Shown: in pieces, positions 17,695-34,691 of the stretch
Layout of the letters: every line of letters starts with the position of its first letter
Numbering within the stretch: the first letter of the stretch is position 1
NCBI GenBank assembly: GCA_020247005.1
Contig: JADCJN010000285.1
Span: 1-35,067 of the forward strand
DNA length: 35,067 nt
Reading direction: 5' to 3'
Origin: Silvanigrellales bacterium
GTDB lineage: Bacteria; Bdellovibrionota_B; Oligoflexia; Silvanigrellales; Silvanigrellaceae
The notes under the pieces: generated by a model
The model's input: the letters and a program-made list of their open reading frames with translations, nothing else
Databases searched by the model: none
Told to the model about the DNA's origin: nothing
Made by a program: the position numbers and the translations under genes

Positions 17695-17849
17695 CGGCGA
17701 TACACCCAACCTCCCCACAGCCACAAGCAACCAAATGTTGCACCCCTTCACACCCCGAATCCGCTACCTTGCAGCGAGCTCCCTTTTGGCGGGCAATGAG
17801 GAGACTGGCGCTCGCGTTCGCGCCCTGCGATTGCAAAGGACCCCATGCA

Positions 17850-18755
17850 ATGAAACGACATTTGCGCCTCTCTCATTCTACAGCAGTTTTGGGCATTGTG
17901 GGCCTCACCCTGGGTTCCGCTTGCAGCGATTCCAGCGCAACGCAGGTCGACGAGCCTCGTCCTTTCCAGCTCGAGTTTGTTGCCACCGCCTCTGGCCAGC
18001 CCCTCCGTTGCGCGCAGACACTCTCGGGGCTCGGCTCGAAGAAAACGCAGGGCAAGCTCCTCGATTTTGCGTTCTACGTGCGAGGCCTCTCGTTCATTCG
18101 GGCCGATGGAAGTGAAGTCGCGGCGGAGCTCGACACGAATGCCTGGCAAAACCAGAACGTCGCCCTCCTCGATTTCCAAGACCTCTCGGACGAGTGCAAG
18201 GGTGCCGCCAAGCCCACAAACACCATCATCAAGGGCCAGGTGCCCACACAAGACGAGTTCTCGGCAGTCCGCTTCACGGTCGGCCTCCCGCCGGCGCTCA
18301 ACCATGCCAATCCTGCCAGTGCAAAGGCGCCCTTCAACGTGCAACGTCTCTTTTGGTCGTGGCAGAGCGGCTACAAGTCCATGCGTCTCGACATCGCTCC
18401 CAAGGGCGGCATCACGCGGCCCTCCGATCCTAGCTTTTCAGGTACGAATTATTTTTTCCATCTGGGCAGCACCGGGTGCACCGGAAATCCCGAGTCGGGA
18501 AGGCCCGTGAAGTGCTCGCGGACGAATCAGCCTGTTGTCACGTTATCGAATTTTGAGTTCCAGAAAAGCAAGGTTTCCATTGACGTGGCAACGTTGCTGG
18601 CAGACCTCGATTTGAACACCGACGCTGCCGACACGCCAGGCTGCATGTCGGATGTTACAGACACGGAATGCAAGGCATTCTTCAAGGCGATTGGACTCGA
18701 ATTCGAATCGGGTGCCGTATCACAGTCTCCCCAAGTCACGTTTAGGCTCTTATGA
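17850..18755 (+). CDS. mbnP: MbnP-family putative copper-binding lipoprotein, pair B
   Basis: A 301-residue protein. I chose ATG 17850 because AAAGGA lies about nine bases upstream and a lipobox follows (LTLGSAC, Cys25). This is a more canonical MbnP than copy A. It has FQLEFVATASGQPLRC, LLDFAFYVRGLSFI, VRFTVGLPPALNHANP, LFWSWQSGYKSMRLD (Trp169, Trp171), FFHLGSTGC (His204, Cys210) and the C-terminal pair in TPGCMSDVTDTECKAFFKAIGL. Besides Cys25 the mature domain has six Cys (54, 116, 210, 222, 265, 274). In the family, a Trp is converted to kynurenine by MbnH and the protein then binds Cu(I); Trp169 or Trp171 is the likely site here. The stop overlaps the mbnH start (ATGA). Confidence 0.92.
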   Translation: MKRHLRLSHSTAVLGIVGLTLGSACSDSSATQVDEPRPFQLEFVATASGQPLRCAQTLSGLGSKKTQGKLLDFAFYVRGLSFIRADGSEVAAELDTNAWQNQNVALLDFQDLSDECKGAAKPTNTIIKGQVPTQDEFSAVRFTVGLPPALNHANPASAKAPFNVQRLFWSWQSGYKSMRLDIAPKGGITRPSDPSFSGTNYFFHLGSTGCTGNPESGRPVKCSRTNQPVVTLSNFEFQKSKVSIDVATLLADLDLNTDAADTPGCMSDVTDTECKAFFKAIGLEFESGAVSQSPQVTFRLL

Positions 18756-19930
18756 AGATGACTTTGACCCAGCGCCTTCTCCGTTGCGTCGCCGCGGCTT
18801 TTCTTTGCGCGGGCCTTGCCGGCGCATGTTCGAACTCTTCGTCAACCGAAGTCATTTCCGCGTCCTCCGACGCAGGCGACTTCCTTTGGAACATTCCCGA
18901 CGGAATCCCGCTTCCTATCGTCCCATCGGAAAATCCGGTGAACGAGCTGAAATTCGAACTCGGCCGGCGCCTTTTCTACGACAAGCGCCTCTCTGGCAAC
19001 GGGAGCATGAGCTGCAGCGGATGCCATGAGCAGAGCCGGGCGTTCACTGATGGAAAGAAGGTCGCCCTAGGTTCGACCGGAGAAGCACATCCCCGGGGTT
19101 CACAGGCGCTCGTGAACGTTGCCTACAATTCCACACTGACGTGGGCGAACCCCACTCTTCTCTCACTCGAACGCCAGATCCTCGTGCCGCTTTTTGGCGA
19201 AACACCCGTGGAGCATGGACTCACCGATGCGAACTGGCCCGAGGCGAAACGCCAATTGGAAAAAGAGCCGGTGTACCAGCGGTTGTTTCCGAAAGCGTTC
19301 CCTGGCGAAGCTGCCTTTTTTTCGAAAGATCAGATTGTGAAGGCGCTCGCCACGTTTGTGCGCGGACTCAATTCTTTCGGCAGTCCCTACGATCGCTTTC
19401 TGGCAGGAGACGACACTGCGCTCGGAGAGAAGGAGACGCGTGGAAAGGCCCTTTTCTTCGGCGAGCGCCTCGAGTGCTTTCACTGCCATGGTGGTTACAA
19501 TTTTTCCGACTCCACTGCCGATCGCACAATGACCTTCATCAACCGCCCGTTTCATAACACGGGACTCTTCAACATCGCGGCGTCGGGCGCGTACCCCGCG
19601 CCAAATCGGGGCGTGTTCGAAATCACGGGCACACCATCGGACATGGGCCGCTTCCGTGCACCCACGTTGAGGAACATCTCAAAAACCTCGCCCTACATGC
19701 ACGACGGCAGCGTGGCCTCTCTTGGCGAAGTGGTGGAGTTCTATGCCGCTGGAGGCCGTAACATCGCTTCGGGCCCCGAGCAGGGGGACGGTCGGAAAAA
19801 TCCTTACAAAGACGGATTCGTGACGGGGTTCTCGTTGTTGCCCAGCGAAAAGCAAGACCTTATTGCGTTTCTTGAAAGCCTGACCGACGAAGGGTTCCTT
19901 CGAAATCCCCGATTCTCAAATCCCTGGTGA
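18752..19930 (+). CDS. mbnH: MbnH-family di-heme oxidase, pair B
   Basis: A 392-residue protein translationally coupled to the upstream MbnP (ATGA). The lipobox is AGLAGAC with Cys26. The c-heme motifs are CSGCH (88-92) and CFHCH (242-246). Trp131 in NSTLTWANP lies between them as in MauG-like enzymes. Other marks are LKFELGRRLFYDKRLS, RPFHNTGLFNI, DMGRFRAPTLRNI and SPYMHDGSVASL. The expected role is H2O2- or oxidant-driven oxidation of a Trp in the paired MbnP in the periplasm. An outer-membrane barrel gene follows after seven bases, so the unit is likely a three-gene operon. Confidence 0.92.
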   Translation: MKMTLTQRLLRCVAAAFLCAGLAGACSNSSSTEVISASSDAGDFLWNIPDGIPLPIVPSENPVNELKFELGRRLFYDKRLSGNGSMSCSGCHEQSRAFTDGKKVALGSTGEAHPRGSQALVNVAYNSTLTWANPTLLSLERQILVPLFGETPVEHGLTDANWPEAKRQLEKEPVYQRLFPKAFPGEAAFFSKDQIVKALATFVRGLNSFGSPYDRFLAGDDTALGEKETRGKALFFGERLECFHCHGGYNFSDSTADRTMTFINRPFHNTGLFNIAASGAYPAPNRGVFEITGTPSDMGRFRAPTLRNISKTSPYMHDGSVASLGEVVEFYAAGGRNIASGPEQGDGRKNPYKDGFVTGFSLLPSEKQDLIAFLESLTDEGFLRNPRFSNPW

Positions 19931-21161: not shown

Positions 21162-21629
21162 TCAAGGCACTTGGACGGGGATTTCGACGACGTCTTCTTG
21201 CCCATCCACGAGCAGTCGGACGTTCAGTTCCCACGGACCAGACATCGAGAAACCGAGCTGACTGACAGTAAGGACGTTTTCCTTCGCCTCGGCAATGGGC
21301 CGGTCCCCTGGCGCGCCGTGTCCGTGGATTTTCATGTAAGGGAAGACCTCGCGCACTGCAATTGAGGTCGGTTTCGTTCCATTGGGGAGCACAAGGGTCA
21401 CTTGAAGGCTATTGAGGCTTTCCTCACCAAAGGTGACACGCGGACCTGCGAACCATGCTGTGATTGCGGCTCGAAACACTCCCTTCTTCGACGTCTGTCC
21501 TAGAGTCGAATCCGGCGCGCTCGTCGCACGAGGTGCAGGCACCTCACCAACTGAAGTTTGCTTGCTGCAAGCCAAAACAAGGGAACAGGCAAGCAGGACG
21601 GAAAGTCGCCTCAAGGATCTTCGGCGCAT
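21162..21629 (-). CDS. YtkA/FixH-like periplasmic lipoprotein
   Basis: A 155-residue protein. GGGAG lies five bases before the ATG, which overlaps the end of the MNIO partner gene by 19 bases. The lipobox is CSLVLAC (Cys21). The domain has the single immunoglobulin-like fold pattern of YtkA/FixH proteins: LNSLQVTLVLPNGTKP, PYMKIHGHGAPGDRPIAE and QLGFSMSGPWELNVRLLVDG. The Met/His motif MKIHGHG resembles the copper-binding MxxMxHG motif of related proteins. It is the last gene of the MNIO cassette and ends only 15 bases from the convergent barrel gene. A periplasmic copper-handling role is inferred. Confidence 0.75.
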   Translation of the reverse strand: MRRRSLRRLSVLLACSLVLACSKQTSVGEVPAPRATSAPDSTLGQTSKKGVFRAAITAWFAGPRVTFGEESLNSLQVTLVLPNGTKPTSIAVREVFPYMKIHGHGAPGDRPIAEAKENVLTVSQLGFSMSGPWELNVRLLVDGQEDVVEIPVQVP

Positions 21630-22465
21630 GGAATCTCCCGTCGGGCACAGCCATCGTCACTGCCAGGGCGCTGCCAGAGTCCGAGGGAAAGACCTGTCGA
21701 GAGCCATTCGCCCAAACTTCCCGCCAACTCATCTTCCGAAACCATTGTCAGCAGAACGTCGAGGGCATCTCCTAGGGAACACTCTCGCAGCGCGGCGTAA
21801 AATGACGCTTGCGCAGGCGACAGGGGAATCACCATCGTACTCGTGCCCTTGCGACAAAGGAGCCAAGGTGTTGCTGCGCGCGTTTCACGGTCTGAATCCA
21901 ACTCCGAGCAAGATGCAGGCTCATGTCGCACGGAGCAATCCATGTCCTCCTTCCGGGCATTTATGAGGACCCAGCTTGGACGCGGCTCGAAAACAACGTT
22001 TTCGAGTGCACTGTCTTCCAACAGGCCATCGGGTAGCGATTCAAGGGCGTCAACTTCGGGCGCGCACCTCACTGTTGCGAAAGCGAAGTCGACTTGAAGC
22101 GTCTCGCGCAAGCGCGTTTCTCCGCGGGGCGAGAGCGCCGCAAGTGGGGCGCTTGAGTTCGAAATGGCATGTGAAATGGTGCGCCAGAGATCTTCAAGGT
22201 TGTGCGCATCGAGGCTGAGTTCCCCCACGATCCGATGCACGAGGAGGTTGACAATTGTAGGGCCGTGCACTGCGGTCGTGAGCGGAAGATCTGCTTGCGC
22301 CGTATTGAAAAGACGGAACCAATACTGTTTCCTGTATTGCGAAACTTGCTCTCGGCCCGACGGAACGATTAAGGCGCGGCCAACCAAGGGGAGCGGTGTT
22401 GTGAGCGCCCCAAGGAATGCGTCCTCGAAGGTTCGCAGCCATTCAGGCGGGGAAACGAGCGTCAT
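21611..22465 (-). CDS. MNIO partner-like protein (BufC/DUF2063-like)
   Basis: A 284-residue soluble protein. I chose ATG 22465 because AAGGA lies six bases upstream; it overlaps the MNIO gene end by 23 bases. An ATG two codons earlier (22471) is the alternative. The N-terminal 90 residues (LRTFEDAFLGALTTP, then SQYRKQYWFRLFNTAQADLPLT, then IVNLLVHRIVGE) have the helix pattern of DUF2063-type partners. Those proteins present precursor peptides to MNIO enzymes. The C-terminal part, including SPAQASFYAALRECSLGDAL, resembles a winged-helix or RiPP-recognition end as seen in several partners, but I cannot prove homology. Five Cys residues lie in the C-terminal half. Position and overlap make partner function likely. 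Confidence 0.7.
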   Translation of the reverse strand: MTLVSPPEWLRTFEDAFLGALTTPLPLVGRALIVPSGREQVSQYRKQYWFRLFNTAQADLPLTTAVHGPTIVNLLVHRIVGELSLDAHNLEDLWRTISHAISNSSAPLAALSPRGETRLRETLQVDFAFATVRCAPEVDALESLPDGLLEDSALENVVFEPRPSWVLINARKEDMDCSVRHEPASCSELDSDRETRAATPWLLCRKGTSTMVIPLSPAQASFYAALRECSLGDALDVLLTMVSEDELAGSLGEWLSTGLSLGLWQRPGSDDGCARREIPCAEDP

Positions 22466-23291
22466 CGGCATTCCTTCGCCCTTTGAGCACTTGTGCGACC
22501 AAAGATTCCCATGATGGAATCTCGGCATCCCATTCAAGCAAAAGCGGATAGGAGCCAAAGTGTTTCTGGGCTTGACGATGCAGAGCCCAGACCCCGTCGC
22601 AGACGGCACGGTTGTGGGTGTCGACCAGCAGCCCGCCTTCTCCTGTTTCGTGGCCCGCTACGTGGGCCTGAAGCAAACGTTTCGGTTCCAAGTGAACGAA
22701 ATAGCACGCTGGATCGAATCCATTGTTCCACGAAGAAACGAACACATTGTTGATGTCGAGCAGATAATGACAGCTCGCCTCGCCCACTACGGCTGCGAAA
22801 AACGCAGCCTCTGTCATGTCACTTTCTGGAAACGTGACATAAGACGAGACGTTCTCAAGTCCAAATGGCCGCTCTAGAATGTCCTGCACCAGGGCTGCTC
22901 TTCGGGCCGCGTAGTGCACAAGATCATGGCGGAAGGGCGTGGGAAGGAGGTCGTGGGAAGCGTGGCGTGCAGTCCGAGTCCAGCACAGATGGTCGGTTAC
23001 GAAAGGGGCATCAACGCGGTCTGCCAGGGCCTTGAGTTTCGTGAGATAGGTGCGATCAAGAGGCTCGGTGCCAAGGATATTCAGGCCGACTGTGTGCACG
23101 ACCGCCGGGAGATGTTCTCTTATGGCGTCAAGATGCGCGTTGGGTAACGGCTGCCCGAACAGGTAATTGTCGCCAAGAATCTCGACATAATCGATGCCGG
23201 CATCCCCTTTCTCCAAGGCAGCGCGGAGTTCGAGGACGTTCTCGGGTCGCAGCGCTATTCCTAGAGCATCACGCTTCAACGCACGCGGCAA
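22443..23291 (-). CDS. MNIO family (DUF692) multinuclear nonheme iron oxidase
   Basis: A 282-residue TIM-barrel enzyme starting at TTG 23291, which has GGGAGGA six bases upstream. All expected iron-ligand positions of the MbnB/BufB/TglH superfamily are visible: His66 (VHTVGLNI), Asp100-His101 (VTDHLCW), Glu146-Asn147 (LENVSSYV), Asp179 and Asn181 (LLDINNVFVSS), His210 (QAHVAGH), Asp224-His226 (DTHNRAV) and Glu253 with Asp255 (LLLEWDAEIP). Members use two or three irons and O2 to convert Cys residues of peptide substrates, for example to oxazolone/thioamide pairs in methanobactin or thiooxazoles in bufferins. Upstream by 45 bases is a Cys-rich cytochrome lipoprotein and downstream is a partner-like protein, so the substrate is probably that upstream product. 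Enzyme family is sure; chemistry is not. Confidence 0.95.
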   Translation of the reverse strand: MPRALKRDALGIALRPENVLELRAALEKGDAGIDYVEILGDNYLFGQPLPNAHLDAIREHLPAVVHTVGLNILGTEPLDRTYLTKLKALADRVDAPFVTDHLCWTRTARHASHDLLPTPFRHDLVHYAARRAALVQDILERPFGLENVSSYVTFPESDMTEAAFFAAVVGEASCHYLLDINNVFVSSWNNGFDPACYFVHLEPKRLLQAHVAGHETGEGGLLVDTHNRAVCDGVWALHRQAQKHFGSYPLLLEWDAEIPSWESLVAQVLKGRRNADDARFPA

Positions 23292-23336
23292 GACCGATCC
23301 TCCCTCGACGGAGGAACTTTGCGCAGAGCCCCAGTG

Positions 23337-24125
23337 TCACTTGGGATCCGTCCACGGCTTGACCTTTACGGGCAGGGTGCGGATGTGGGCCACGACGCGC
23401 TCGACCTCGGCACGCGAATAGAAACCATGGTAACCAGGCATATTCGCGTATGCCACCCCTGTCGCTTTGCGTCCTTTCAGTCCGAACGCGATGGCAGACA
23501 TGAGTGCCTCGTCCGATTTCTTCGCGAACTCGGTTTCCTTCGCCTTTACATTCGACCCTGGAGGCACGGGCAATACGAAGGCGTCCTTGCCATCGCCATG
23601 GCAGAACGCGCACTGAACCTCGGAGCCAACCTTTTCTTCCCCTTTCTTGCCTTGCAGTATCTCGGCACCCTGAAGGCCCGCGTCGGCAGGCAAAACCACG
23701 CAAGACATGCCGGCACAGGTGTTCATCGCACGGCACGTATGGTCTATTCTCGTGCCATAGCTGAACGAGAAGCCCTTGCAGCTATTGACCCCGGCGCAGC
23801 TCGCATGAATTTCCACGATGCCGGCCGCCGTCTTGCACTCTTGCGTGAACGACTTCAGGGTCACACCCTCGAGCTTTTCAGTCTTTTTGGTGATCTTCGG
23901 CTTCACAGCGGGCACTTCGACAATCCGCTCCTTTGTGATGACTTCAGGGTCGGCGGACTCGCTTCCGCAGGCAGCCAACAGCCCTCCCGCAACAAGAGCG
24001 CTCCCAGAAAGAGCCATCCGCGCCACCGACAAGAGCCGGCGCTTGTTGACTTCGACCTGACGTGGCTGGTTTGAGCAAGGCTGGATGGGCTCGGTGGGGT
24101 GGGTAGGCTCGGCCGGAAGTTCCAT
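23337..24125 (-). CDS. Cys-rich domain fused to c-type cytochrome, lipoprotein; candidate MNIO substrate
   Basis: A 262-residue protein. I chose ATG 24125 because AGGAG lies nine bases upstream. After a 27-residue N-region comes a twin-arginine-like signal (NKRRLLSVARMALSG) ending in the lipobox GGLLAAC (Cys53). A Lys/Glu/Val-rich linker follows. Residues 97-142 form a six-Cys domain (Cys97, 110, 116, 131, 137, 142) with two copies of C-x3-N-x-C-x-G (SCAGVNSCKG and TCRAMNTCAG). This pattern is seen in Cys-rich precursors next to DUF692 enzymes (BufA-like). A class I cytochrome domain follows, with CAFCH (172-176) and a Met in YANMPGYH. It is the first gene of the MNIO cassette and lies 102 bases after the RegA-like gene. 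A copper- or redox-active RiPP-cytochrome hybrid is inferred. Confidence 0.88.
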   Translation of the reverse strand: MELPAEPTHPTEPIQPCSNQPRQVEVNKRRLLSVARMALSGSALVAGGLLAACGSESADPEVITKERIVEVPAVKPKITKKTEKLEGVTLKSFTQECKTAAGIVEIHASCAGVNSCKGFSFSYGTRIDHTCRAMNTCAGMSCVVLPADAGLQGAEILQGKKGEEKVGSEVQCAFCHGDGKDAFVLPVPPGSNVKAKETEFAKKSDEALMSAIAFGLKGRKATGVAYANMPGYHGFYSRAEVERVVAHIRTLPVKVKPWTDPK

Positions 24126-24182
24126 GTCTTCAAACTCCTGCAAAAAAGGTGAATTCCAAGCTACGGCACCAGGAGTCAGAGG

Positions 24183-24205
24183 CACCGCAGCAAATTGTTG
24201 CGGTG
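24183..24205 (-). other. Hairpin between the RegA-like gene and the cytochrome/MNIO cassette
   Basis: CACCGCA (24183-24189) and TGCGGTG (24199-24205) are a perfect 7-bp inverted repeat with a 9-base loop. No T tract follows on the minus strand, so it looks like an attenuation or processing site rather than a strong terminator. A run of nine G (24216-24224) lies next to the regA stop. Confidence 0.45.
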
Positions 24206-24227: not shown

Positions 24228-24845
24228 CTAGTTCGTGTGGTCGGCCGCGTCGTCTTCCAAATCGTCGCCGGCCTCCATTCCCACAAAAGTTGCAGCAGCA
24301 GGATACTTGCGGAGTTTTCGCTGAAGACTTTGGCGGTGTAAGCCAAGTCGCCTTGCTGCCTGCGTAATATTCCAATCGCATTGAGCAAGCACAAACTCGA
24401 TAAGCTCGTACTCGTATTGCGCAAGGCGTGATGACTCCCCATCTGTCTTCGACAGGTCGAAGCCGTCTGCCACGCCCTCAATCCACAGGGCTTGTTCAAT
24501 GAGTTCGATGTTCGAGGGCTTGAGAATGCAGTTCACAGCGCCGCCCCTCATCGACTCCACAGTTGTCGCGGTGGTGGGATAGCCCGTGAGCATCACGGCT
24601 CGACAGGAACTGTTTGCCGACAAAAGCGGTTTGAGCAAGCGAAAGCCGAGCTCACCTCTCACGCGAAGATCTAAAATAGCAAAATCGAATGCACACCCAC
24701 TTTCTATGGCGCACTTGGCGTTTTCGAGAGTGGAAGCTTCGAAGACAGTATAGCCGCGCTCTTTGAATTCGAGCACGAGTGTTTGCCGGAAGGCATCGTC
24801 ATCGTCCACAATAAGAAGACTTCGACCTCGAGATTTTTCATTCAT
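24228..24845 (-). CDS. regA: RegA/ActR/PrrA-like redox response regulator
   Basis: A 205-residue response regulator. I chose ATG 24845, which overlaps the sensor kinase stop by eight bases. The receiver has the acidic pocket LLIVDDDD, phosphoacceptor Asp59 (FAILDLRVRGELG), Thr87 (MLTGYPTTAT) and Lys109 (ILKPSN). The C-terminus is a Fis-type helix-turn-helix (CDWNITQAARRLGLHRQSLQRKLRKY), which matches the RegA family ending closely. RegA orthologues lack an AAA+ domain and act at sigma-70 promoters to control respiration, cytochromes and related genes. The next genes downstream on the same strand are the cytochrome/MNIO cassette, and cytochrome bd-like genes are divergent nearby; both are natural targets. 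Confidence 0.9.
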   Translation of the reverse strand: MNEKSRGRSLLIVDDDDAFRQTLVLEFKERGYTVFEASTLENAKCAIESGCAFDFAILDLRVRGELGFRLLKPLLSANSSCRAVMLTGYPTTATTVESMRGGAVNCILKPSNIELIEQALWIEGVADGFDLSKTDGESSRLAQYEYELIEFVLAQCDWNITQAARRLGLHRQSLQRKLRKYPAAATFVGMEAGDDLEDDAADHTN

Positions 24846-26115
24846 CAGTGCGGCCCTCATTGGCGATGGGCAACTCAAGTTGAACACAGGACCCTCGTTC
24901 AGAAGCATCTTCAACTCTGAGTGACCCACCCATGGCATGGCAGAGGGTGTGTGCATGGTAAAGCCCCAATCCGCTTCCCTCCGCGTGAGTGGAAAAGAAA
25001 GGCGAGCCTAAATTCTCTCGAATGAGCGCAGGGAAACCCGGCCCTTCATCTTTGACGCGGAGAGTCACGATTCCCTCGCGAGGGCACTCGAGCAGGACTG
25101 TTATAGATTCCCCTCGCGTCGCTGCATTGGCCCTCCAGGCGTTGTCGAGCAAGTCGAGAAGCATCTGCGTGAACGATACGAGTGGCGCGCGCACGGACAC
25201 CCCCGACGTAAGGTCTACGATCTCAACCTTGGACTTGTCGGACTCCCAGCCGCGCACAGTCTGGGCAACGAGCGGCGAAAGCGCGTGAGTGCCGAAGTCG
25301 GCCTCTTCCGGAGCCATCTGGCGTTGAAGCAACGTGCGCAAGGAGCGCTCGCAGCGGGCACTGGCCTCGATAGCTTCCTTGAGGTCGGCGTTCCCCTCCA
25401 GCAAATCGTTGCGGGCGAGCCTGGCAAGGCGCAGGCGCAGGGTCGCGAGCGGCGTGGCGAACTCATGTGAAAAACCGGTGGCAATGACTCCAAACGCGCG
25501 CAGCCTGTCGATGCGGTGCCGGCTTTCGCGGACGCGCTCGAGTTCTTTTTTCCGGGCATCGATTTGATGCGCAATCCAAGCCAGGAGCCCGACAAGAAAG
25601 AGCAACAAAACAGCTTGCGCAGGATAGAGTTGCGCGCTTGGCGTCGGCTGTGAATAGAGCGCCTGAGGCACAACTGGATCCCAGTGCAGCACGACAAGTG
25701 CCCACGCGAGAAACAGAACGTAATATGTGAGCCAGGCACCGCGGAGCAGCAATGCGCCAAGTGCGCCGTGAAAAAGAAGCAGCGGCGCAAATGGATTCCA
25801 CGGACCACCGGTGAGCATCAGAAGTAACGTCAAAGACAGCGCATCGAAGGCGAGTTGGAAGAACAGAAATCCTTTCGTTGCGTCTATGCGCCTACGGGCA
25901 AGAACACCTCGACTGACGACGGTGAACAGCGCCATGAAGGCGATGATCGCCATAAAGGACAAGAGGCGATCGCCTGGAAGCCAACCGAGGCGAAGCGCGG
26001 GCCAAACCGCGAGAGCCTGGCCGCCAAGTGCCCACCACCGAAGTCTGAGGACGAGGTCGACTCCCACTGCGTCGTCATTGGACGTCATGGATGCCCTTTT
26101 TTCAGGTGACGTCAT
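24838..26115 (-). CDS. regB: RegB/PrrB-like redox-sensing histidine kinase
   Basis: A 425-residue membrane kinase. Its ATG begins one base after the LRR gene stop, so translation is coupled. About six membrane helices (residues 25-185) include GGPWNPF (103-109), the GGxxNPF quinone-sensing motif specific to RegB/PrrB/ActS. The H-box is GFSHEFATPLATLRLRLARL with His217. The ATPase domain has LLDLLDNAWRANA (N box), VKDEGPGFP (G1) and GSGLGLYHAHTL (G2). RegB orthologues respond to quinone pool redox state and to oxygen. It is followed by the cognate regulator gene with overlap. I do not see the redox-active Cys at its usual place after the H-box. Confidence 0.9.
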   Translation of the reverse strand: MTSPEKRASMTSNDDAVGVDLVLRLRWWALGGQALAVWPALRLGWLPGDRLLSFMAIIAFMALFTVVSRGVLARRRIDATKGFLFFQLAFDALSLTLLLMLTGGPWNPFAPLLLFHGALGALLLRGAWLTYYVLFLAWALVVLHWDPVVPQALYSQPTPSAQLYPAQAVLLLFLVGLLAWIAHQIDARKKELERVRESRHRIDRLRAFGVIATGFSHEFATPLATLRLRLARLARNDLLEGNADLKEAIEASARCERSLRTLLQRQMAPEEADFGTHALSPLVAQTVRGWESDKSKVEIVDLTSGVSVRAPLVSFTQMLLDLLDNAWRANAATRGESITVLLECPREGIVTLRVKDEGPGFPALIRENLGSPFFSTHAEGSGLGLYHAHTLCHAMGGSLRVEDASERGSCVQLELPIANEGRTDE

Positions 26116-26116
26116 G

Positions 26117-27136
26117 TCAATTCAAACTCGCGCACACGTCTGCCACTGCTCGCGAAAGTGCATCTTGAGGGCACTCGTCCTTCGAAATGGGATTGTCTCG
26201 AACTGAGAGAGTTGTGATTTTCGCAAGCGACCTGAGGGGTGTGAGAGAGGCCACGCTGTTGTTGCGAACATTGAGAAGAGCGAGATTCGGGACATCGGCG
26301 AGCGGCGAGAGCGAAGTGATACTGTTGCCCCACAGAGCGATTGCTTGAAGCGCGCTCAGACCTCGGAGCGGCGAAAGATCTGAAATTCTGTTCTTTCCCC
26401 CGATGACGACATTCAGCCCTTTGAGGGCCACAAGCGGAACAAGATCATTCACGCTATTGTTCGTGAACTCCAAGACCCTGAGCGCCGACAGGCTCGAAAG
26501 TGGCGAAAGCGAAGCGATGCGGTTGCTTGAAATGATAATGCGCTGAAGCTGTGTCAAGGAGCGCAGAGGGCCAAGATCTTCGATGTCGTTCTGACTGGCG
26601 GAAAGAACTTGTAGACGCGATGCTCCTGCCGCGAGGGGAGTCAGATCGCGTATCTGATTCCGTGCGATCGAAAGATCTACGAGTGACGCGAGCCTCGGAA
26701 GAGTCTCGAGTCCAACATCGTTATTGCTGACCCAAAGCGTGCGGAGCTTCTGCATGGAAGCAAGCGGGGAGAGATCAACGATACGGTTGTTCGACAGGTA
26801 AAGCTTATCGAGTGACGTGAACGACGAAAGCGGACCAAGATCGGAGATGGACTCGTTCTGGAGATCGAGTTCGAACAGTTGCATGAGGCGCGAATTCGCT
26901 TCGTCGCAATCTTCCGTGCCGGCCCGCGCGAGCAGGGCCTTCACCGTCACCCGAGTTTCGAGCTTGGGTTCCGCGTCCTTGCAAGAGGAAAGAAACGATG
27001 GAGTTGCGCGCATCTGCAAGAGCCGCGCATCGCTCCGAACGGCACGGCCACATGCACTGAGCAAAGGCAGGACGACGATGGCAACCGAGAGCGGAATCAA
27101 ACCCCAAAAGGCACGGCAACCCATAAAGCTTGTCAT
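26117..27136 (-). CDS. Leucine-rich-repeat lipoprotein coupled to the RegB-like kinase
   Basis: A 339-residue protein. I chose ATG 27136 because GGGAG lies five bases upstream and a lipobox follows (VLPLLSAC, Cys29). Residues about 85-325 hold ten 21-23-residue repeats of the form N-x-I-x-D-L-x-P-L (for example NNRIVDLSPLASMQKLRTLWVS). This is the SDS22/internalin-like class of leucine-rich repeats, giving a curved binding surface. It is divergent from the YcnI-like gene and one base ahead of the RegB-like kinase gene. A periplasmic protein co-made with a membrane sensor could be an accessory sensor or ligand receptor; this is inference from position. Confidence 0.88.
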   Translation of the reverse strand: MTSFMGCRAFWGLIPLSVAIVVLPLLSACGRAVRSDARLLQMRATPSFLSSCKDAEPKLETRVTVKALLARAGTEDCDEANSRLMQLFELDLQNESISDLGPLSSFTSLDKLYLSNNRIVDLSPLASMQKLRTLWVSNNDVGLETLPRLASLVDLSIARNQIRDLTPLAAGASRLQVLSASQNDIEDLGPLRSLTQLQRIIISSNRIASLSPLSSLSALRVLEFTNNSVNDLVPLVALKGLNVVIGGKNRISDLSPLRGLSALQAIALWGNSITSLSPLADVPNLALLNVRNNSVASLTPLRSLAKITTLSVRDNPISKDECPQDALSRAVADVCASLN

Positions 27137-27265
27137 GGAATCTCCCTGAGTCTGGATTGAAAACGCGAACGTTACCACAAGGTCAAGTCTCGGGCGGAAG
27201 ACGCAACGATAGGCTGCACCCATGGCAGGTTCAACTCGCGAGGGAGTAGGATCCCCTCGCATCCT

Positions 27266-27286
27266 TTGATTCAGATACCGAATCAA
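27266..27286. promoter_or_regulatory. Inverted repeat between the LRR/regBA operon and ycnI
   Basis: TTGATTC (27266-27272) and GAATCAA (27280-27286), with a 7-base spacer, lie in the 194-base divergent promoter region, 45 bases before the YcnI start. It is a good operator candidate. The spacing differs from the Zur-like sites at the right end of the window. Confidence 0.45.
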
Positions 27287-27330
27287 GAGCTTCCAGAGCG
27301 CCGTCAACGAAGCCCTTCGGAGATCCCACG

Positions 27331-27876
27331 ATGAAAATCCCAAAGTCTCATTTCCTTCGCGTCATGGTTTCTGCCGCCTGTTGTCTTCCAACATCGAATT
27401 CGGCCTTTGCGCACGTTGTCATAACAAGCCCGAGCGCAAAGGCGGGAGGTTACGCGAAGCTCACAATCGGCATTGGCCATGGCTGCGACGGTTCCCCGAC
27501 AAAGGCCATCACAGTGACGATTCCTATAGAAATTATAGCCGCGAAACCTCAAATCCATTGGAACTGGAGCTCGACGACGAAATTGGAAAAGCTCGAAAGG
27601 CCCTACACGAGCCATGGAACGACAATCAGCGAACGCGTTGCGGTCGTGACATTCGTGGCCAAGGAGCCGGTCGCCGACGACCGCTACGATGAACTCGGAC
27701 TGAGCGTGCGTGTCGCACAAGACGCAAAAGGTGACCTCGTGCTTCCCGTGAAGCAGGAATGTGAAAAGGGCACGATCGAATGGAAAGACGGGAAAGAGGC
27801 GAAATCGGAGTATCCAGCTCCGAAACTGCGTGTGCAGAGGAACCGAACGGAACAAGGAAACGCTCACTCCCACTAG
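27331..27876 (+). CDS. ycnI: YcnI-like (DUF1775) periplasmic copper protein
   Basis: A 181-residue protein; GGAG lies eight bases before the ATG. The signal peptide is cut after NSAFA (27), so mature residue 1 is His28 (HVVITSP). This N-terminal His is the copper ligand in the monohistidine brace described for YcnI. The DUF1775 body has GGYAKLTIGIGHGCDGSPTKAI, TVTIPIEI, KPQIHWNWSST, and AVVTFVAKEPVADDRYDELGL. No C-terminal membrane anchor is present; the tail is polar and ends HSH. It lies upstream of the cytochrome bd-like genes with a 162-base gap. A role delivering or buffering copper in the periplasm is expected. Confidence 0.9.
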   Translation: MKIPKSHFLRVMVSAACCLPTSNSAFAHVVITSPSAKAGGYAKLTIGIGHGCDGSPTKAITVTIPIEIIAAKPQIHWNWSSTTKLEKLERPYTSHGTTISERVAVVTFVAKEPVADDRYDELGLSVRVAQDAKGDLVLPVKQECEKGTIEWKDGKEAKSEYPAPKLRVQRNRTEQGNAHSH

Positions 27877-28038: not shown

Positions 28039-29445
28039 ATGGATTTCCCTCTCTTCCACATGGACTTCTTCAACAATCGCATTCTGATTGCCGGTGTCGC
28101 CATCCTTCACGTCCTCATCAATCATGCCCTGGCCGTGGGGGGCATCCCGCTCGTGGTCTGGTTGGAGCGAAAAGGCATCGTAACAGGTGACGAGCGCTGG
28201 GATGCCTTGGCGCGCAAGATCATGTTTACGTTCTTCGTTGTCACCACGACCGTGGGAGCCATGTCGGGCGTCGGCATCTGGTTCGCAGCCTCTCTGGTCA
28301 ACCCGGCAGCCATTGGCAGCCTCTTGCGAGTGTTCTTTTGGGCCTGGTTCGTAGAGTGGTTCATCTTCGTCACGGAAGTCATTCTCATCCTCATTTACAT
28401 GCTGACTTGGAAGAGCTGGACGGGTGAAAAGAAGAAGGCTCACTTCCGTTTTGGTGTGTTCCTTTCCGTGGCCTCGTGGATCACCATGGCGCTCATTGTG
28501 AGCATCCTTGCGTTCATGATGGATTCGGGCAGCTGGCTGACCGATCGAAGCCTCTTTTCCGGAATGCTCAATCCTCTTTATCTCCCCCAGCTGGCTTTCC
28601 GCACGCCTTTGGCCTTGGCGATGGGAGGAGCTGCAGCACTTTGCCTCGTTCCCTTCTTCTGCAAAGCCGATCAGGAGTTCCGAGCCAAAGCGGCAAGAGC
28701 CTGCGCGATCTGGACTTTGCTGTGGCTGATTCCCTGCATTGCAGGAAGTGTTTGGTACCACTCACGCATCCCGGCCTCTATGGTCGGCAACATGGCTGTT
28801 GCTCTCACGACGCAAGCCTTCACGGACTGGTATTCGCTGTTGAACTGGGTTCTCATCGGTGCCGTCGCAACAGTCCTAGCGCTCTGTTTCTTTACTGTCC
28901 TCGTGCCAAGGCGAATTCCCAGTGCTGCGAACTTCGTTCCTTTGCTCGCCCTGTGCGCCCTTCTCGGGCTCTTTGAAAGGGTTCGAGAATTCATTCGAAA
29001 GCCCTACGCCATCGCCAACTATCTCTACTCTAATGGTTATCGCTCTGAAGACACGAGTCTTCTGCAGCGAGACGGTGTTCTAGTCCACTCAGCCTTCGCA
29101 CGTGTGCGCAAGGTTACAAAAGAGAACACGCTTGAGGCCGGACGCGAAGTGTTCCTTCTGACATGCACGCGGTGCCATACCACCACGGGAGTCAATGGCA
29201 TTGTTGACGTCGTGGAACGCATGTACGGCACAAAGGCGACACGAGCCGCATGGGATGCGCAGGCTCTTTCCAACTACATCGCCAGTATGCACAACGCACG
29301 ATCCTTCATGCCGCCCTTCCCGGGGTCTGAAGCCGAACGCGATGCGCTGTCAGCCTACATTATCAGCCTTCGAAACTCGCCTCGGACTCTTGAAGGCGCG
29401 CAATCGGCGGGCGTAGGCCCCTTGGCACCAAAGGAGTTTCCATGA
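28039..29445 (+). CDS. CydA-like membrane subunit with C-terminal c-type heme domain (subunit 1)
   Basis: A 468-residue protein; GAGGA lies eight bases before the ATG. About nine membrane helices (residues 12-318) resemble cytochrome bd subunit I. Helix 1 has His24 and His29 (LHVLINHALAVGG); helix 3 has two glutamates (VEWFIFVTE, Glu106 and Glu113), comparable to Glu99/Glu107 of CydA. The segment where CydA has its b558 His reads LPQLAFRTPLAL, without His. The cytoplasmic Q-loop and GRQPW motif are missing. After FERVREFIRKPY comes a cytochrome c domain with CTRCH (376-380) and a Met in SFMPPFPG. Heme-c-bearing groups are known in the cytochrome bd superfamily. It overlaps the next, related gene by ATGA. 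The electron donor may be quinol or a c-type cytochrome. Confidence 0.82.
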   Translation: MDFPLFHMDFFNNRILIAGVAILHVLINHALAVGGIPLVVWLERKGIVTGDERWDALARKIMFTFFVVTTTVGAMSGVGIWFAASLVNPAAIGSLLRVFFWAWFVEWFIFVTEVILILIYMLTWKSWTGEKKKAHFRFGVFLSVASWITMALIVSILAFMMDSGSWLTDRSLFSGMLNPLYLPQLAFRTPLALAMGGAAALCLVPFFCKADQEFRAKAARACAIWTLLWLIPCIAGSVWYHSRIPASMVGNMAVALTTQAFTDWYSLLNWVLIGAVATVLALCFFTVLVPRRIPSAANFVPLLALCALLGLFERVREFIRKPYAIANYLYSNGYRSEDTSLLQRDGVLVHSAFARVRKVTKENTLEAGREVFLLTCTRCHTTTGVNGIVDVVERMYGTKATRAAWDAQALSNYIASMHNARSFMPPFPGSEAERDALSAYIISLRNSPRTLEGAQSAGVGPLAPKEFP

Positions 29446-30752
29446 CGACATTCCCGTTCAAAGACATCCCGCTGCCCTTGCCGGCTCCTGAGCTGTTCCT
29501 TCAAGGTGCGCTCGTCTTGGCTTTCGCTGCGCATATCCTCTTCGTCAACCTCGTCGTCGGCGGCAGCCTCCTCACGCTCTTCTTTCAGATTCGCGGACTC
29601 AAAGATCCCAAGTTCGACGAGCTGGCTCACGCCATCGCCAACACCATCACCGTGAACAAGAGTCTCGCGGTTGTTATGGGCGTGGCTCCGCTCTTGCTTC
29701 TCAACGTCCTTTATACGGTGTTTATTTACTCGTCTAACTCTCTCACCGGGTTCGCTTGGTTCCTCATCGTTCCTCTCGTGACGGCAGCGTTCGTGCTCAC
29801 CTACGCCCACAAATACAGCTGGGATGCCATGGCCGACAACAAACCGATTCACATTGCCCTCGGCGGCATGGCCACCATCCTGTTCCTCATCATTCCCCTC
29901 GTGTTCCTCACGAATACCAACCTCATGCTCTTCCCTGACAGTTGGTCGCGCGTGCAGGGCTTTTTTTCGGCTCTTGTGATGCCCAACGTCCTCCCTCGTT
30001 ACCTCCACTTCCTCGCCGCTTCCCTCTCAGTGACGGCGCTGTTTATGGTGGCCTACTCAGGCCGCTCGTCCGACATCCTCGGCTGGTTGCAGCGCCACAG
30101 GCTCCATAAAGGCAGCCTCAAGCGTGACTTTTACGGCATCGTATTCGGGGTAACGCTGGTGCAGTTCCTGGCGGGCCCCTTGGTGCTTGTCACGTTGCCT
30201 TCTCAAGGTCTGTCGTTCTTCATGCTTGCTTTCATTCTCTCGGGAGCCGCGTTAGCGGTCCTCCTCGCCCTGCTCATCTGGAAGGAGATGAAGTCGCCAG
30301 ACAGCGAGGTGGGGAACCGGTTCCCCAGCATCCTCGTGGTCATGACGACAATCGTTGCTTGCATGGTTTTAGGACGACACTTCTATCGCGAAACCGCCCT
30401 TCAGGCGCACAAAATGGAGATGAAAACACGCACAGCCGCGTTTGTCGCAGCCTCCGAGCAGGCTGCCTACGATGCGGCAAATGAGGCGCTGGCACCTAAA
30501 GATCCCCTGGTGGCCGGCAAGAGCGCCTTCGATGCGAACTGCGCCGGGTGTCATCAGCTCGACAAGAAACTGGTGGGTCCGTCGGTTCTGGAAATCGCGT
30601 CCATTTACGCATCCAACGAATCGGGAATCATCGAGTGGTCCAAAGCCCCGGGCAAGAAACGTGCGGACTCCCCGCAAATGCCGGCCATGTCTCATGTGAA
30701 AGACAAGGACCTGGCCGCCATCGCGACGTGGATGCTTGCTCAGAAAAAGTGA
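29442..30752 (+). CDS. CydA-like membrane subunit with C-terminal c-type heme domain (subunit 2)
   Basis: A 436-residue protein translationally coupled to subunit 1. Helix 1 contains AAHILFVNLVVGGSLLTLF (His31), matching the b595 His helix of CydA. A later segment reads NVLPRYLHFLAAS (His189), the place of the b558 His ligand that subunit 1 lacks. About eight membrane helices are followed by a coiled Ala/Glu linker (325-350) and a class I cytochrome c domain with CAGCH (367-371) and Met in QMPAMSHV. Two unequal CydA-like chains suggest a heterodimeric CydAA'-style enzyme with two c hemes and no CydB. Function as O2 reductase is inferred from the superfamily. A Zur-like box starts 21 bases after its stop. 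Confidence 0.82.
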   Translation: MTTFPFKDIPLPLPAPELFLQGALVLAFAAHILFVNLVVGGSLLTLFFQIRGLKDPKFDELAHAIANTITVNKSLAVVMGVAPLLLLNVLYTVFIYSSNSLTGFAWFLIVPLVTAAFVLTYAHKYSWDAMADNKPIHIALGGMATILFLIIPLVFLTNTNLMLFPDSWSRVQGFFSALVMPNVLPRYLHFLAASLSVTALFMVAYSGRSSDILGWLQRHRLHKGSLKRDFYGIVFGVTLVQFLAGPLVLVTLPSQGLSFFMLAFILSGAALAVLLALLIWKEMKSPDSEVGNRFPSILVVMTTIVACMVLGRHFYRETALQAHKMEMKTRTAAFVAASEQAAYDAANEALAPKDPLVAGKSAFDANCAGCHQLDKKLVGPSVLEIASIYASNESGIIEWSKAPGKKRADSPQMPAMSHVKDKDLAAIATWMLAQKK

Positions 30753-30841: not shown

Positions 30842-32068
30842 ATGCGACTCCCCCTTGCGCTGGTTGTTCCCGTTGTTTTCCGGCTGGTTCCCTTCGTCGT
30901 CGTGGCGGGGTTCTCGACGGGGCATGCGGACGTTGGCTTGGAGGCCAACCACTATTTCCTCGCGGAAGGAAAAGTGCAGAGGCTTTCACCCCCGCTCATG
31001 GCCCGAAATCTCGCATTGTTTCATTTGGCCTCGTGGAAGGCCGTTCGGGCCCTGGAAAGCGACTCTTCCGATGACGTGCAGAGAGCCCGGGTCCTGGGAG
31101 CGTTCCGTGCCGTTTGGGCAAACGCCTTCGACTGGAAGGGCTCCGATGCTCGCGCCTGGCACGACGAATCATTGGCGAAACTGCAGCAAAACTCCCACGA
31201 GCCCGCCGCTCTCCTCGACGCGTGGGACGAGGGGCGGAGGGTGGGAACTCAGCTCGTCGACGACCGGCGTGAGGACCTGGCAATTGCACAGGCACCAGAC
31301 CACCTCGCCCCCCCCTGGGCCGATGGTTTTCCGACTTGGACACCGGGAGCGCATGCCAAGGCATTGCATCCACGGTGGGGTGAAGTCCGTCCGTTGGTGG
31401 CGCAGGGCGTGCACCATGTGCCAACCCCACCCTCTCCAGCAATGAGCTCATTCACCCGAGACGTGATTTTGACAGCGCGCATGGGAGCCGAAGATGCAGC
31501 AGGTGCGACACCAGAAACCCAGATGATCGCTCGATTCTGGGAGCAAGGCTCGGGAACGGTCACTCCGCCAGGGCAATGGAACGTCATAGCGGTCGATTTT
31601 GCACGAGGCGCTGGCCTATCGCTCCGCGAGGAGGTTCAGTTCTTCGCCCAACTGAATGTTGCGCTCTTCGACGCGTCCATCCACTGCTGGCGCGAGAAAT
31701 ACCGGCATCGAGCGCCGCGCCCCGTCGACGTCATGACCGCGCTTTTCCCAAACCTGGGTTGGACGCCTTTGCTCGCGACTCCCCCCCATCCGGAGTACCC
31801 GAGCGGACACAGCACCTTCTCGGCAGCAGCCGCGGAAGTTGTCGAACACTGGAATGCAGGAGGGGTGAAGCCCCTATCGGTGACTTCTGAAGACACACCC
31901 GGTGTTGTGAGGCGTTTCGCTGACGCCCACGCTCTTGCACGGGAAGCGGGGCTCAGCCGCATCTATGGAGGGATTCATTTCCCGTCCGCAAACCAGGCCG
32001 GCCTCCAACTGGGGAAAGAAGTGGGACGCGTCGTTGTGCTGAGCCTCAGCTCTGAGGACGCTCCGTAA
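30842..32068 (+). CDS. Vanadium-haloperoxidase/PAP2-superfamily secreted protein
   Basis: A 408-residue protein. I chose ATG 30842, with GAGG eight bases upstream and a signal peptide (residues 1-29, ending STGHA). The frame is open further upstream but there overlaps the CydA-like gene. C-terminal motifs match the vanadate/phosphate pocket shared by haloperoxidases and PAP2 phosphatases: Lys286 and Arg293 (KYRHRAPRP), PSGH (320-323, in HPEYPSGHSTFSAAAAEVV), and Arg373 with His379 (RIYGGIHFPSANQAG). The N-terminal half is helical, as in vanadium chloroperoxidase relatives. The enzyme needs no zinc, and it sits behind a Zur-like box. A role replacing a zinc-dependent phosphatase under zinc shortage is possible. 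Phosphatase versus haloperoxidase cannot be decided here. Confidence 0.88.
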   Translation: MRLPLALVVPVVFRLVPFVVVAGFSTGHADVGLEANHYFLAEGKVQRLSPPLMARNLALFHLASWKAVRALESDSSDDVQRARVLGAFRAVWANAFDWKGSDARAWHDESLAKLQQNSHEPAALLDAWDEGRRVGTQLVDDRREDLAIAQAPDHLAPPWADGFPTWTPGAHAKALHPRWGEVRPLVAQGVHHVPTPPSPAMSSFTRDVILTARMGAEDAAGATPETQMIARFWEQGSGTVTPPGQWNVIAVDFARGAGLSLREEVQFFAQLNVALFDASIHCWREKYRHRAPRPVDVMTALFPNLGWTPLLATPPHPEYPSGHSTFSAAAAEVVEHWNAGGVKPLSVTSEDTPGVVRRFADAHALAREAGLSRIYGGIHFPSANQAGLQLGKEVGRVVVLSLSSEDAP

Positions 32069-32380: not shown

Positions 32381-33706
32381 ATGCCCAACGACACGCGCTT
32401 GCCTGTGACGGTCCTGTCCGGATTCCTTGGTGCCGGAAAGACGACGCTCCTCACGCACCTGCTCAACAACCGTTGTGGCCTGCGGGTCGCTCTCATCGTC
32501 AACGACCTGAGCGAGGTGAACGTCGATGCGGCGCTGGTGAAGCAAGGAGCGGCCTCGCTGACCCGCACCGACGAAAAGCTCGTCGAAATGAGCAACGGCT
32601 GCATCTGTTGCACGCTCCGCGAGGATCTTCTCGTTGAGATCCGGAAACTCGCGGAAGTAGGCCGCTTCGACGCACTCATCATCGAGTCCACAGGAATCTC
32701 GGAGCCCCTCCCTGTCGCCGAAACCTTCACATTCGCGGATGATCAAGGACGGCGCCTCGACGAAGTCGCTCGCCTCGACACCCTCGTCACCGTGATCGAC
32801 GCCGAGTCGTTTCTCGACCTTTATCTTTCGCGCGACTCGCTCGCAGACACAGGGCAACAGGCAAACGAAAACGACCACCGGCAAGTCGCTGATCTCCTCG
32901 TGGAGCAGGTTGAGTTCGCCAATGTGCTCGTCATGAACAAATGCGACCGCGTGGATGAGGCTCAACGGGAATGCTTGGTCGGGATCCTCCGAAAGCTTAA
33001 TCCCGAGGCCCAGATTATCCACGCCGTGAATGCGCAAGTGCCTTTCGCTGCGCTGGTCGGTACGGGTCTGTTCTCCTTAGACAAGGCCTCGGCCGCGCCT
33101 GGGTGGCTCCAGGAACTTCGAGGCTCGCACCGCCCCGAAACTGATGTCTATGGACTTTCAAGCTTCGTTTACCGTGCAAGGCGACCTTTTCATCCCGCAC
33201 GGCTCGAGTCGTTGCTGCAACATCCGTTCGCGGGCGTCTTGCGGGCCAAAGGAACGTTCTGGATCGCGAGCCATCCTGAACGTTCCTGGCAATGGTCGCA
33301 TGCGGGCCTGTCGTTACGCGTAGAACCCGGCGAACTCTGGCGCGCTGCCCTTGCGGAAGCAGATGGACCCGATGTTTTCGCGATGTTCGGGGCTTTGAGT
33401 GCCGAGTGGGACCCTGTGTACGGAGACAGAAAACAGGAGCTCGTCTTTATTGGTATCGGACTCGAAAAGGAGGCCCTCTCAGCAAGCCTCGACGACTGCC
33501 TTCTCTCGGACGAGGAGCTCGAGTTCGGGAGAGCCGCATGGAGCTCTCTCACATCGCCTCTCTTCGGCACCGTTCCTCAGTCCAATGTGCAAGGACTCGG
33601 GCAACGCACGTCACCTGGCGTTCGCGAATTTCTTGAGTTCAGTCGCACGCTACTCGATGCACAACACGAGGACGAAACTGAAAAACGATCCACCCTTGAC
33701 AAATGA
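32381..33706 (+). CDS. CobW/COG0523-family GTPase, Zur-controlled zinc chaperone type
   Basis: A 441-residue G3E GTPase. Marks are Walker [10 protein letters not shown] (14-22), the metal motif CICC (74-77, in [12 protein letters not shown]), [10 protein letters not shown] and NKCD (186-189). The C-terminal CobW domain covers about residues 235-375 ([17 protein letters not shown], then [16 protein letters not shown] and [20 protein letters not shown]). COG0523 proteins under Zur control (ZigA/YciC, ZNG1) hand zinc to client enzymes when zinc is scarce. A Zur-like box with an internal -10 lies 15-40 bases upstream. The stop codon TGA lies inside the Zur-like box of the next gene. A His-rich loop between domains, common in other members, is not seen. 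Confidence 0.93.
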
Positions 33707-33721: not shown

Positions 33722-33758
33722 AAGAAAGAGGACACTTCTTTCTGCACGAGGCGCCTCT

Positions 33759-34691
33759 ATGTTGTTTTCCCCATTCCCGACCGTCCGAATCCTCTCACTC
33801 ATCGTTTCGAACCTTGTGATCTCCGTCGCATTCGCAGCGCCACTGCGCGTCGTGGCAACGACCCCACAGATAGCGGAGGCCGTTCGACTTGTTGGAGGCA
33901 ACGAAGTTGAGGTGAAGACTCTCGTGGCCCCTGGCCTCGATCCCCACACCTACAAGGCCACGCCTTCCGACGTTGAAGCGCTCAAAATGGCCGATGTCAT
34001 CTTCATTTCCGGACTGCACCTGGAAGCACAGATGGAGAGAGTGCTCAAAGCGCAAGGCGCAAGGAAAGCTGTCGTCATCGTGAGTGACGGCATCCCTCGT
34101 TCCGAACTCCTTCCCGATCCGGAGATCAAAGGACAGTTCGACCCGCATTTTTGGCACGATATTTCACTGTGGCGCAAGGCAGTTGACACAGTGAAAACCA
34201 CGCTTATCAAAACCCGGAAAGCGGATTCAAAGACCTTCGAGGCGAACGCCATGGCCTACGACAAGACCCTCTCGGAACTCGACGCCGACCTCGGCCGCGA
34301 GATCGCCCGCATCCCTCGCTCTTCCCGGGTCCTCGTCACGACGCATGACGCCTTTAGTTACTTTGCTAGGCGGTACGGTTTTCAGGTTGACAATGTCCAA
34401 GGCGTCAATACGGAAAGCGAAGCCTCCGTTGCCGACGTGCGCCGGGTTTCCGATTTTCTCGTTTCACGAAACGTGTCGGCGATGTTCCTAGAATCCTCTA
34501 CGCCCGCGAGATATGCGCAGGCCGTCATTGAGGCAGCCGCCGCCAAAGGTAAGAAGGTCTCCTTGGCCAGTGAACTCTATGCCGACGGACCTGGGGAAGC
34601 GTCCGGGCCCGCTGGAACCTACGAAAGGATGATGCGTCTGAACACGAAGACCATCGTTTCCGCCCTTTCGGGAATCACGGCCTCCAAATGA
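33759..34691 (+). CDS. znuA: Zinc ABC transporter, periplasmic substrate-binding protein
   Basis: A 310-residue cluster A-I binding protein. I chose ATG 33759 because GAGG lies seven bases upstream and a signal peptide follows (ending SVAFA, 26). Likely metal ligands are His63 (LDPHTYKATPSD), His130 (FDPHFWHDIS), His196 (TTHDAFSYFARRYGF) and Asp276 (ELYADGPG). The His-rich loop of enterobacterial ZnuA is absent, and the FDPHFWHD sequence resembles TroA/AztC/MntC types. The sequence alone would not settle Zn against Mn; the Zur-like box and the neighbouring zinc-stress genes argue for zinc. The stop overlaps the ATPase start (ATGA). Confidence 0.9.
   Translation: MLFSPFPTVRILSLIVSNLVISVAFAAPLRVVATTPQIAEAVRLVGGNEVEVKTLVAPGLDPHTYKATPSDVEALKMADVIFISGLHLEAQMERVLKAQGARKAVVIVSDGIPRSELLPDPEIKGQFDPHFWHDISLWRKAVDTVKTTLIKTRKADSKTFEANAMAYDKTLSELDADLGREIARIPRSSRVLVTTHDAFSYFARRYGFQVDNVQGVNTESEASVADVRRVSDFLVSRNVSAMFLESSTPARYAQAVIEAAAAKGKKVSLASELYADGPGEASGPAGTYERMMRLNTKTIVSALSGITASK

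Follow-up and report, generated by a model that had tools for sequence, protein, structure and literature searches.

An overlapping gene pair encodes two membrane chains, each with a cytochrome c domain

The window analyzed here (the whole stretch of 35,067 nucleotides of contig JADCJN010000285.1, from a Silvanigrellales bacterium) carries two consecutive genes whose products, called chain 1 and chain 2 below, are the subject of this report. An initial annotation, made from the sequence alone, had described them as two CydA-like chains, each ending in a CxxCH domain, that formed an unusual enzyme of the cytochrome bd superfamily without a CydB subunit or a Q-loop. The chain 1 gene (positions 28039 to 29445) encodes 468 amino acids and the chain 2 gene (29442 to 30752) encodes 436; both open reading frames (ORFs) lie on the plus strand where that annotation had placed them, and they overlap by 4 bases. 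A chance pairing of ORFs was ruled out, as the pair recurs across phyla at ~50% identity.

Pfam recognizes a cytochrome c domain at the C terminus of each chain (residues 364 to 441 of chain 1 and 357 to 433 of chain 2, the latter c552-like), which bears out the two CxxCH domains. Outside these domains neither chain has a Pfam match above the cut-offs, and neither matches PF01654 (CydA) in a search extended to an E value of 10. We counted conservation in an alignment of 84 rows of at least 400 amino acids for chain 1 and of 77 rows of at least 300 amino acids for chain 2. The predicted covalent c-heme site of chain 1 (CxxCH at residues 376 to 380; positions 29164 to 29178, plus strand) is present in 84/84 rows, and Met424, kept in 83/84, is likely the second ligand of this heme. 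The corresponding predicted site of chain 2 (residues 367 to 371; positions 30540 to 30554, plus strand) is complete in 64/77 rows; among the other 13, 2 are cut by the end of the locus and the rest are mostly from Alphaproteobacteria.

Both chains are predicted to adopt the CydA fold

A sequence search matched chain 1 to 5doq_A, subunit I of the Geobacillus bd oxidase, over residues 15 to 162 (E value 2e-6), and a profile search did so with an E value of 2.8e-9. The sequence-level matches of chain 2 were to cytochrome c domains only and did not reach CydA. Both chains were compared as single-chain AlphaFold models, built from alignments of 54 rows (chain 1) and 49 rows (chain 2), whose mean predicted local distance difference test (pLDDT) scores were 82.4 and 92.4, respectively. 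The best structural match of the chain 1 model was again 5doq_A (Z 28.2, 314 aligned residues, 3.5 Å), and that of the chain 2 model was 7ose_A (Z 26.2, 296 aligned residues, 3.4 Å). CydA structures matched the chain 1 model at Z 25 to 28, well above all others; the next matches of the two models were membrane subunits of alternative complex III and polysulfide reductase, at Z 15 to 19. Because both models match CydA chains first, they support the assignment of both chains to the bd superfamily as CydA-like proteins. The profiles of the two chains also align with each other in hhalign (E value 3.8e-18, for a match that includes the cytochrome c domains). A relative of the heme-copper oxidases was ruled out by the CydA fold of both chains.

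The chain 1 model has eight long helices, and the gap between helix 6 (residues 212 to 249) and helix 7 (residues 259 to 288) is only ~10 residues, so that, as the initial annotation had held, there is no Q-loop. The N terminus of CydA is periplasmic; with eight helices and both ends of chain 1 on one side of the membrane, the model would place the c-heme of this chain in the periplasm.

Chain 1 carries the ligand set of the bd diheme site and has lost the b558 histidine

Residues H24, H29, H135, E106, E313, E317, R320, and P322 of chain 1, together with its CxxCH motif, are invariant in all 84 rows. His24 (codon at 28108 to 28110, plus strand) stands opposite H21 of 5doq_A in the sequence alignment and would be the equivalent of CydA His19/His21, a ligand of the active-site heme. 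The paired glutamates already noted in the initial annotation, Glu106 and Glu113 (28354 to 28377, plus strand), lie opposite E101 and E108 of 5doq_A, and Glu113 is kept in 83/84 rows. A global hhalign alignment misplaces the C-terminal half of chain 1 across the Q-loop of CydA, and we therefore aligned the C-terminal part alone. In that alignment, the segment E317-F-I-R320-K-P322 (28987 to 29004, plus strand) appears as the equivalent of the AEFGRQPW motif of CydA, whose glutamate (Glu445) is the b595 ligand; the hhalign score is weak, and it is the shared E-F-x-R-x-P motif that pairs E317 with that glutamate. At the position of the b558 ligand His186, chain 1 has Phe187, next to an Arg188 present in 84/84 rows (28597 to 28602, plus strand), and this ligand thus appears to be lost.

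In chain 2, hhalign identifies His31 (29532 to 29534, plus strand; 77/77 rows) as the likely equivalent of CydA His19 and places His189 (30006 to 30008, plus strand) at the b558 position. The histidine that had been read there before is thus upheld with a refinement, as position 189 is H in 66 of the 77 rows, E in 10, and F in 1. Neither hhalign nor the 77-row alignment showed glutamates at the other CydA ligand places of chain 2, and hhalign gave no usable alignment of its C-terminal part with CydA. By these alignments, chain 1 alone would carry the full ligand set of the bd diheme site (the equivalents of His19, Glu99/107, and Glu445), and chain 2 would keep only those of His19 and His186. 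The earlier suggestion that the ligand sets are divided between the chains thus survives for these two histidines of chain 2, but not for the active site, all of whose ligands lie in chain 1.

Neither PF01654 nor PF02322 (CydB) has a match in the window's genome, which is 92% complete, in agreement with the absence of CydB claimed at the outset; the pair is therefore the only candidate copper-free oxidase found in that genome, which also has two COX1 genes, one of them beside an SCO gene. A canonical bd oxidase was rejected, there being no PF01654 match, Q-loop, chain 1 His186, or CydB. The initial annotation had left quinol and cytochrome c as alternative electron donors. With the Q-loop gone, the b558 histidine missing from chain 1, and c-hemes attached, cytochrome c is favored over quinol. 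A quinol oxidase resembling CydAB, in which the c-hemes served another branch, would fit the CydA fold of both chains and the histidine found at the b558 place in most chain 2 rows, but the missing Q-loop, the phenylalanine at position 187, the lack of a cydB gene, and a c-heme motif present in every chain 1 row make it very improbable.

The gene pair is widespread

One scan of a genome collection yielded at least 586 pattern matches, at least 557 of which encode relatives, and the best 80 were kept. These are 47 to 60% identical to chain 1 (best segment) and come from nine or more phyla (nine phylum groups are counted in the tree table), and in almost all cases both genes occur together, paired in this way. 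They include loci from the cultured genera Flavobacterium, Sphingobacterium, Methylobacter, and Agrobacterium, which leaves the functional ideas developed below open to direct test. Chain 1 occurs in just 2 of 56 related genomes searched, the window's own and one other. The description of the enzyme as unusual does not hold, given this spread and given that the kind has already been proposed in print (PMC4831470; papers are cited here from excerpts of their text).

The tree sets an 82-row clade apart; CydA and a more distant type (loci L004, L005, and L095) both stand outside it. Distances among chain 1 and chain 2 sequences are correlated over 75 pairs (Mantel r = 0.824, with none of 999 permutations as high), which suggests two parts of one complex, although shared species history adds to the correlation. 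Several variants were seen alongside the pair. At one locus, a second protein resembling chain 1 is fused to a multiheme cytochrome part (L082:76-2730, plus strand; 884 amino acids, eight CxxCH motifs), and an 869-amino-acid frame in G086 (where the region C3:3555-4889 was noted) and a 935-amino-acid CydA-like frame in G059 may be similar. Loci L117 and L118 (genomes G077 and G063) hold a further chain 1 paralogue with a c-heme motif, which the tree places outside the main clade, and a 694-amino-acid chain 1 at L035:3997-6081 has two CxxCH motifs.

Copper-related and sMMO genes lie near the pair

Clustering of the ORFs around the pairs, with several cluster representatives checked against Pfam, showed as recurring neighbors AraC regulators (23 loci), kinase/regulator genes (22), SCO1/SenC (18), DJ-1/PfpI (16), TonB receptors (12), and MbnH-type diheme genes (11). 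Searches with tblastn seeds found Fe/Mn superoxide dismutase genes at 6 loci, DJ-1/PfpI at 10, and MbnH-type diheme genes at 10. The neighbors in Planctomycetota, Bacteroidales, Zixiibacteriota, and others had no common theme in the ORF listing. An SCNGRC motif occurs in a small protein from Bacteroidota (L074:5152-5544; its cluster occurs in 24 loci), which is encoded near SCO and AraC genes, has no Pfam or NCBIfam match, and may bind metal.

We compared these associations with chance over whole genomes, using 49 of the genomes of the 80 loci (chosen for long contigs and broad spread) plus that of the window, and counting gene copies within 12 kb of chain 1. The counts cover 109 of the 110 COX1 matches that passed the cut-off (omitting a partial row from G099), the 102 SCO matches down to an E value of 1e-7 (omitting weaker ones), and 45 CydA rows, from which weak or fragmentary ones had been excluded. 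MbnP was found near chain 1 in 12 copies in 9 genomes against 0.24 expected, SCO in 14 copies in 11 genomes against 0.55 expected, and CydA in 3 copies against 0.22 expected; not one of the 109 COX1 copies lay within this distance (0.56 expected).

The nearby MbnH-type genes, found by the tblastn seed at 10 loci, raise the question of whether the pair might act on a substrate other than O2, such as NO or peroxide, or might pass electrons on to periplasmic copper or to enzymes of the MbnH type and be no terminal oxidase at all. The weaker fold matches to membrane subunits of alternative complex III and polysulfide reductase (Z 16 to 19) would be compatible with such roles. We consider them unlikely, because every ligand of the bd diheme site is conserved in chain 1 and the CydA matches stand well above the others.

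In methanotrophs, the pair is associated with soluble methane monooxygenase (sMMO), an iron enzyme that these bacteria use only in the absence of copper (PMC4831470; also textbook knowledge). In genome G114, 1.1 kb separate chain 2 from mmoX, mmoY, mmoZ, and mmoC, which lie downstream of it on the same strand, and MmoX is also encoded close to the pair at L016, L020, and L098; it was not found at L018 or L097. Among 121 Methylomonadaceae genomes, MmoX is present in 6 of the 7 that have the close type of chain 1, versus 20 of the 114 others (Fisher P = 3.6e-4). Four of these 6 have it no more than 5 kb from chain 1; the two genes are far apart in G211 and on different contigs in G186. Genome G122 has the distant type of chain 1, and MmoX was not found in it.

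Relation to described oxidases

The OR-C family of Murali et al. (2021) reportedly belongs to the bd superfamily and has an attached heme c and no quinol site. This group probably covers the pair as well. The families qOR, OR-C, and OR-N are named in PMC13189123, PMC10839748, and PMC11707229. The OR-N CydAA′ proteins of Nitrospira and Nitrospinota are likewise pairs of CydA-like chains, which have been proposed to form an O2 reductase that oxidizes cytochrome c (PMC10839748, PMC12342949, PMC6606698); the likeness is one of description, and the excerpts of these three papers do not mention a copper-gene context. Canonical CydAB (5doq) shares with chain 1 the fold and the diheme-site ligands, whereas the pair has no Q-loop, no b558 histidine in chain 1, and no CydB, and has predicted c-hemes in addition. 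Bordetella pertussis requires canonical bd when copper is limiting, and in copper-starved Mycobacterium tuberculosis this oxidase is a respiratory backup (PMC12914433, PMC12140626).

The nearest precedent is MCA1187 of Methylococcus capsulatus, a CydA-related membrane c-type cytochrome that is upregulated 28.3-fold under copper limitation and was detected in membranes only under that condition, alongside MCA1186 and the diheme cytochrome c4 MCA1185; copper-independent cytochrome c oxidases named cytochrome cbd were postulated on this basis (PMC4831470, the only paper on the topic among the matches listed). Chain 1 resembles cytochrome cbd as described there in being CydA-like, with eight helices and a C-terminal CxxCH, and in having lost the Q-loop and the b558 ligand while keeping the diheme ligands. 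MCA1187 and chain 1 are both encoded next to a further membrane protein, and the M. capsulatus cluster is sMMO linked and induced without copper. The M. capsulatus cluster has a separate gene for cytochrome c4, whereas here chain 2 has a c-heme motif of its own and no such gene adjoins the pair in the window, its neighbors encoding DUF1775 and PAP2 proteins; in the excerpt, however, the separate gene is a feature of that cluster and not part of the authors' definition of cytochrome cbd. Locus L095 (in G122), which has the gene order MCA1187-MCA1186-MCA1185 and is probably of the MCA1187 type to judge by that order, shares 25.8% identity with chain 1 and is not part of the 82-row clade. The kind of enzyme has thus been proposed for a distant relative. 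New here are the c-heme motif on each chain, the breadth of the family, and the link to copper genes and sMMO in the close clade. We recognized no paper on this close form, with a c-heme motif on both chains, in the open-access literature searched.

A candidate copper-independent cytochrome c oxidase

Cytochrome c-fed terminal oxidases are thought of as copper enzymes. We favor, with a probability of roughly 0.6, the reading that the two chains form a copper-independent heterodimer of the bd superfamily, a cytochrome c:O2 reductase used when copper is too scarce for the heme-copper oxidases. The appeal to copper scarcity is made because MbnP and SCO genes lie near the pair and COX1 never does, because of the sMMO linkage, and because MCA1187 is induced without copper. 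The DUF1775, MbnP/MbnH, bufferin, ZigA, and ZnuA genes of the window and the part that canonical bd plays in copper-limited B. pertussis and M. tuberculosis are counted in favor of this reading as well. O2 would be reduced at the diheme site of chain 1, whose ligands are conserved. The electron donor would be a periplasmic cytochrome c, which would reduce the c-heme domain of one chain or of each; from there the electrons would pass to the diheme site of chain 1, perhaps through a b-heme bound at H31 or H189 of chain 2. None would be expected to come from quinol, because chain 1 lacks the Q-loop and the b558 ligand. If this reading is correct, a common copper-free alternative would explain how many bacteria keep cytochrome c-based chains in operation while copper is sequestered, and it would assign a function to a large family in which Pfam models did not reach the membrane part.

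Several observations weigh against it. The Poisson expectations of the linkage test treat gene copies as independent, and Bacteroidota dominate the set. By tblastn seeds, only 28 of the 80 loci have a copper gene or sMMO nearby, many of the contigs being short; the loci concerned are 18 of 38 in Bacteroidota, 6 of 11 in Alphaproteobacteria, 2 of 9 in methanotrophs, 1 of 4 near the window's branch, 1 of 10 elsewhere, and 0 of 8 in Planctomycetota. The copper link therefore differs between groups, from a strong one in some to no sign of one in others. Canonical CydA is also present in 36 of the 50 genomes, so that the pair is often not the sole copper-free oxidase, and the pair as a simple replacement for a missing CydAB fails as a rule, even though the window's own genome has no CydA. 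Finally, the window also holds bufferin genes, and bufferins answer copper excess (PMC12452194).

The bufferin genes would suit an oxidase that protects against copper excess or oxidative stress by consuming O2 or peroxide when the usual chain suffers copper damage, as would the superoxide dismutase and DJ-1/PfpI genes found by the tblastn seeds at 6 and 10 loci. We regard such a role as improbable, since the sMMO link and the induction of MCA1187 without copper (PMC4831470) point to scarcity, and YcnI, the DUF1775 protein of Bacillus subtilis, belongs to a copper-import operon (PMC13344008).

Extending the copper-independent oxidase reading, we suggest more tentatively, as a proposal that falls somewhat short of even odds, that the pair is a low-copper respiratory module shared across many phyla by transfer or deep descent. 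It would be a CydA/CydA′ heterodimer with two covalent c-heme entry points, acting as a copper-free cytochrome c oxidase coregulated with copper-acquisition genes (and with sMMO in methanotrophs), in which chain 2 would be the electron-input subunit that replaces the quinol site and the soluble donor.

Other genes of the window

The copper and zinc genes around the pair had been missed in the initial annotation. A DUF1775 (YcnI-like) protein is encoded 162 bases upstream of chain 1 (27331 to 27876, plus strand; PF07987, E value 2.8e-35). Beyond it on the minus strand lie genes for a sensor kinase (24838 to 26115) whose closest NCBIfam model is RegB/PrrB/ActS (133.6 bits, below the cut-off of 350) and for a response regulator with a Fis-type helix-turn-helix (24228 to 24956) whose closest model is RegA/PrrA/ActR (105.4 bits, below the cut-off of 250); the starts of both are not settled. 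This RegB/RegA-like pair is read away from the chain 1/chain 2 pair and may activate the latter if electrons can no longer flow through the copper oxidases. The same RegBA-like layout occurs at L008, from a Bdellovibrionota relative, with a CopC gene downstream. A leucine-rich-repeat protein is encoded between the kinase and DUF1775 genes (26117 to 27343, minus strand).

The bufferin-type genes, identified by family matches, occupy 21611 to 24185 on the minus strand. They comprise a BufB maturase (22443 to 23291), an adjoining BufA2-like precursor (23337 to 24185) in which a weak BufA2 cysteine motif (20.9 bits) is fused to a C-terminal cytochrome c domain, and an ORF (21611 to 22609) with no Pfam match. 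Fusions of Buf1 with cytochrome c are listed in PMC12452194, whereas the motif in the window is of the BufA2 type. Farther upstream, family matches place MbnP and MbnH genes at 17769 to 19930 on the plus strand and a second such pair at 15244 to 17726 on the minus strand, so that two diverging pairs, one strong and one divergent, stand back to back between 15244 and 19930.

Directly 3′ of chain 2 is a gene for a PAP2/vanadium haloperoxidase-like protein (30842 to 32068, plus strand). It is followed on the same strand by genes for a COG0523 GTPase of the ZigA type, a zinc metallochaperone (32381 to 33706; 559.9 bits, cut-off 600), and for a ZnuA-like metal-binding protein whose start is not settled (33756 to 34691; PF01297, E value 1.7e-73).

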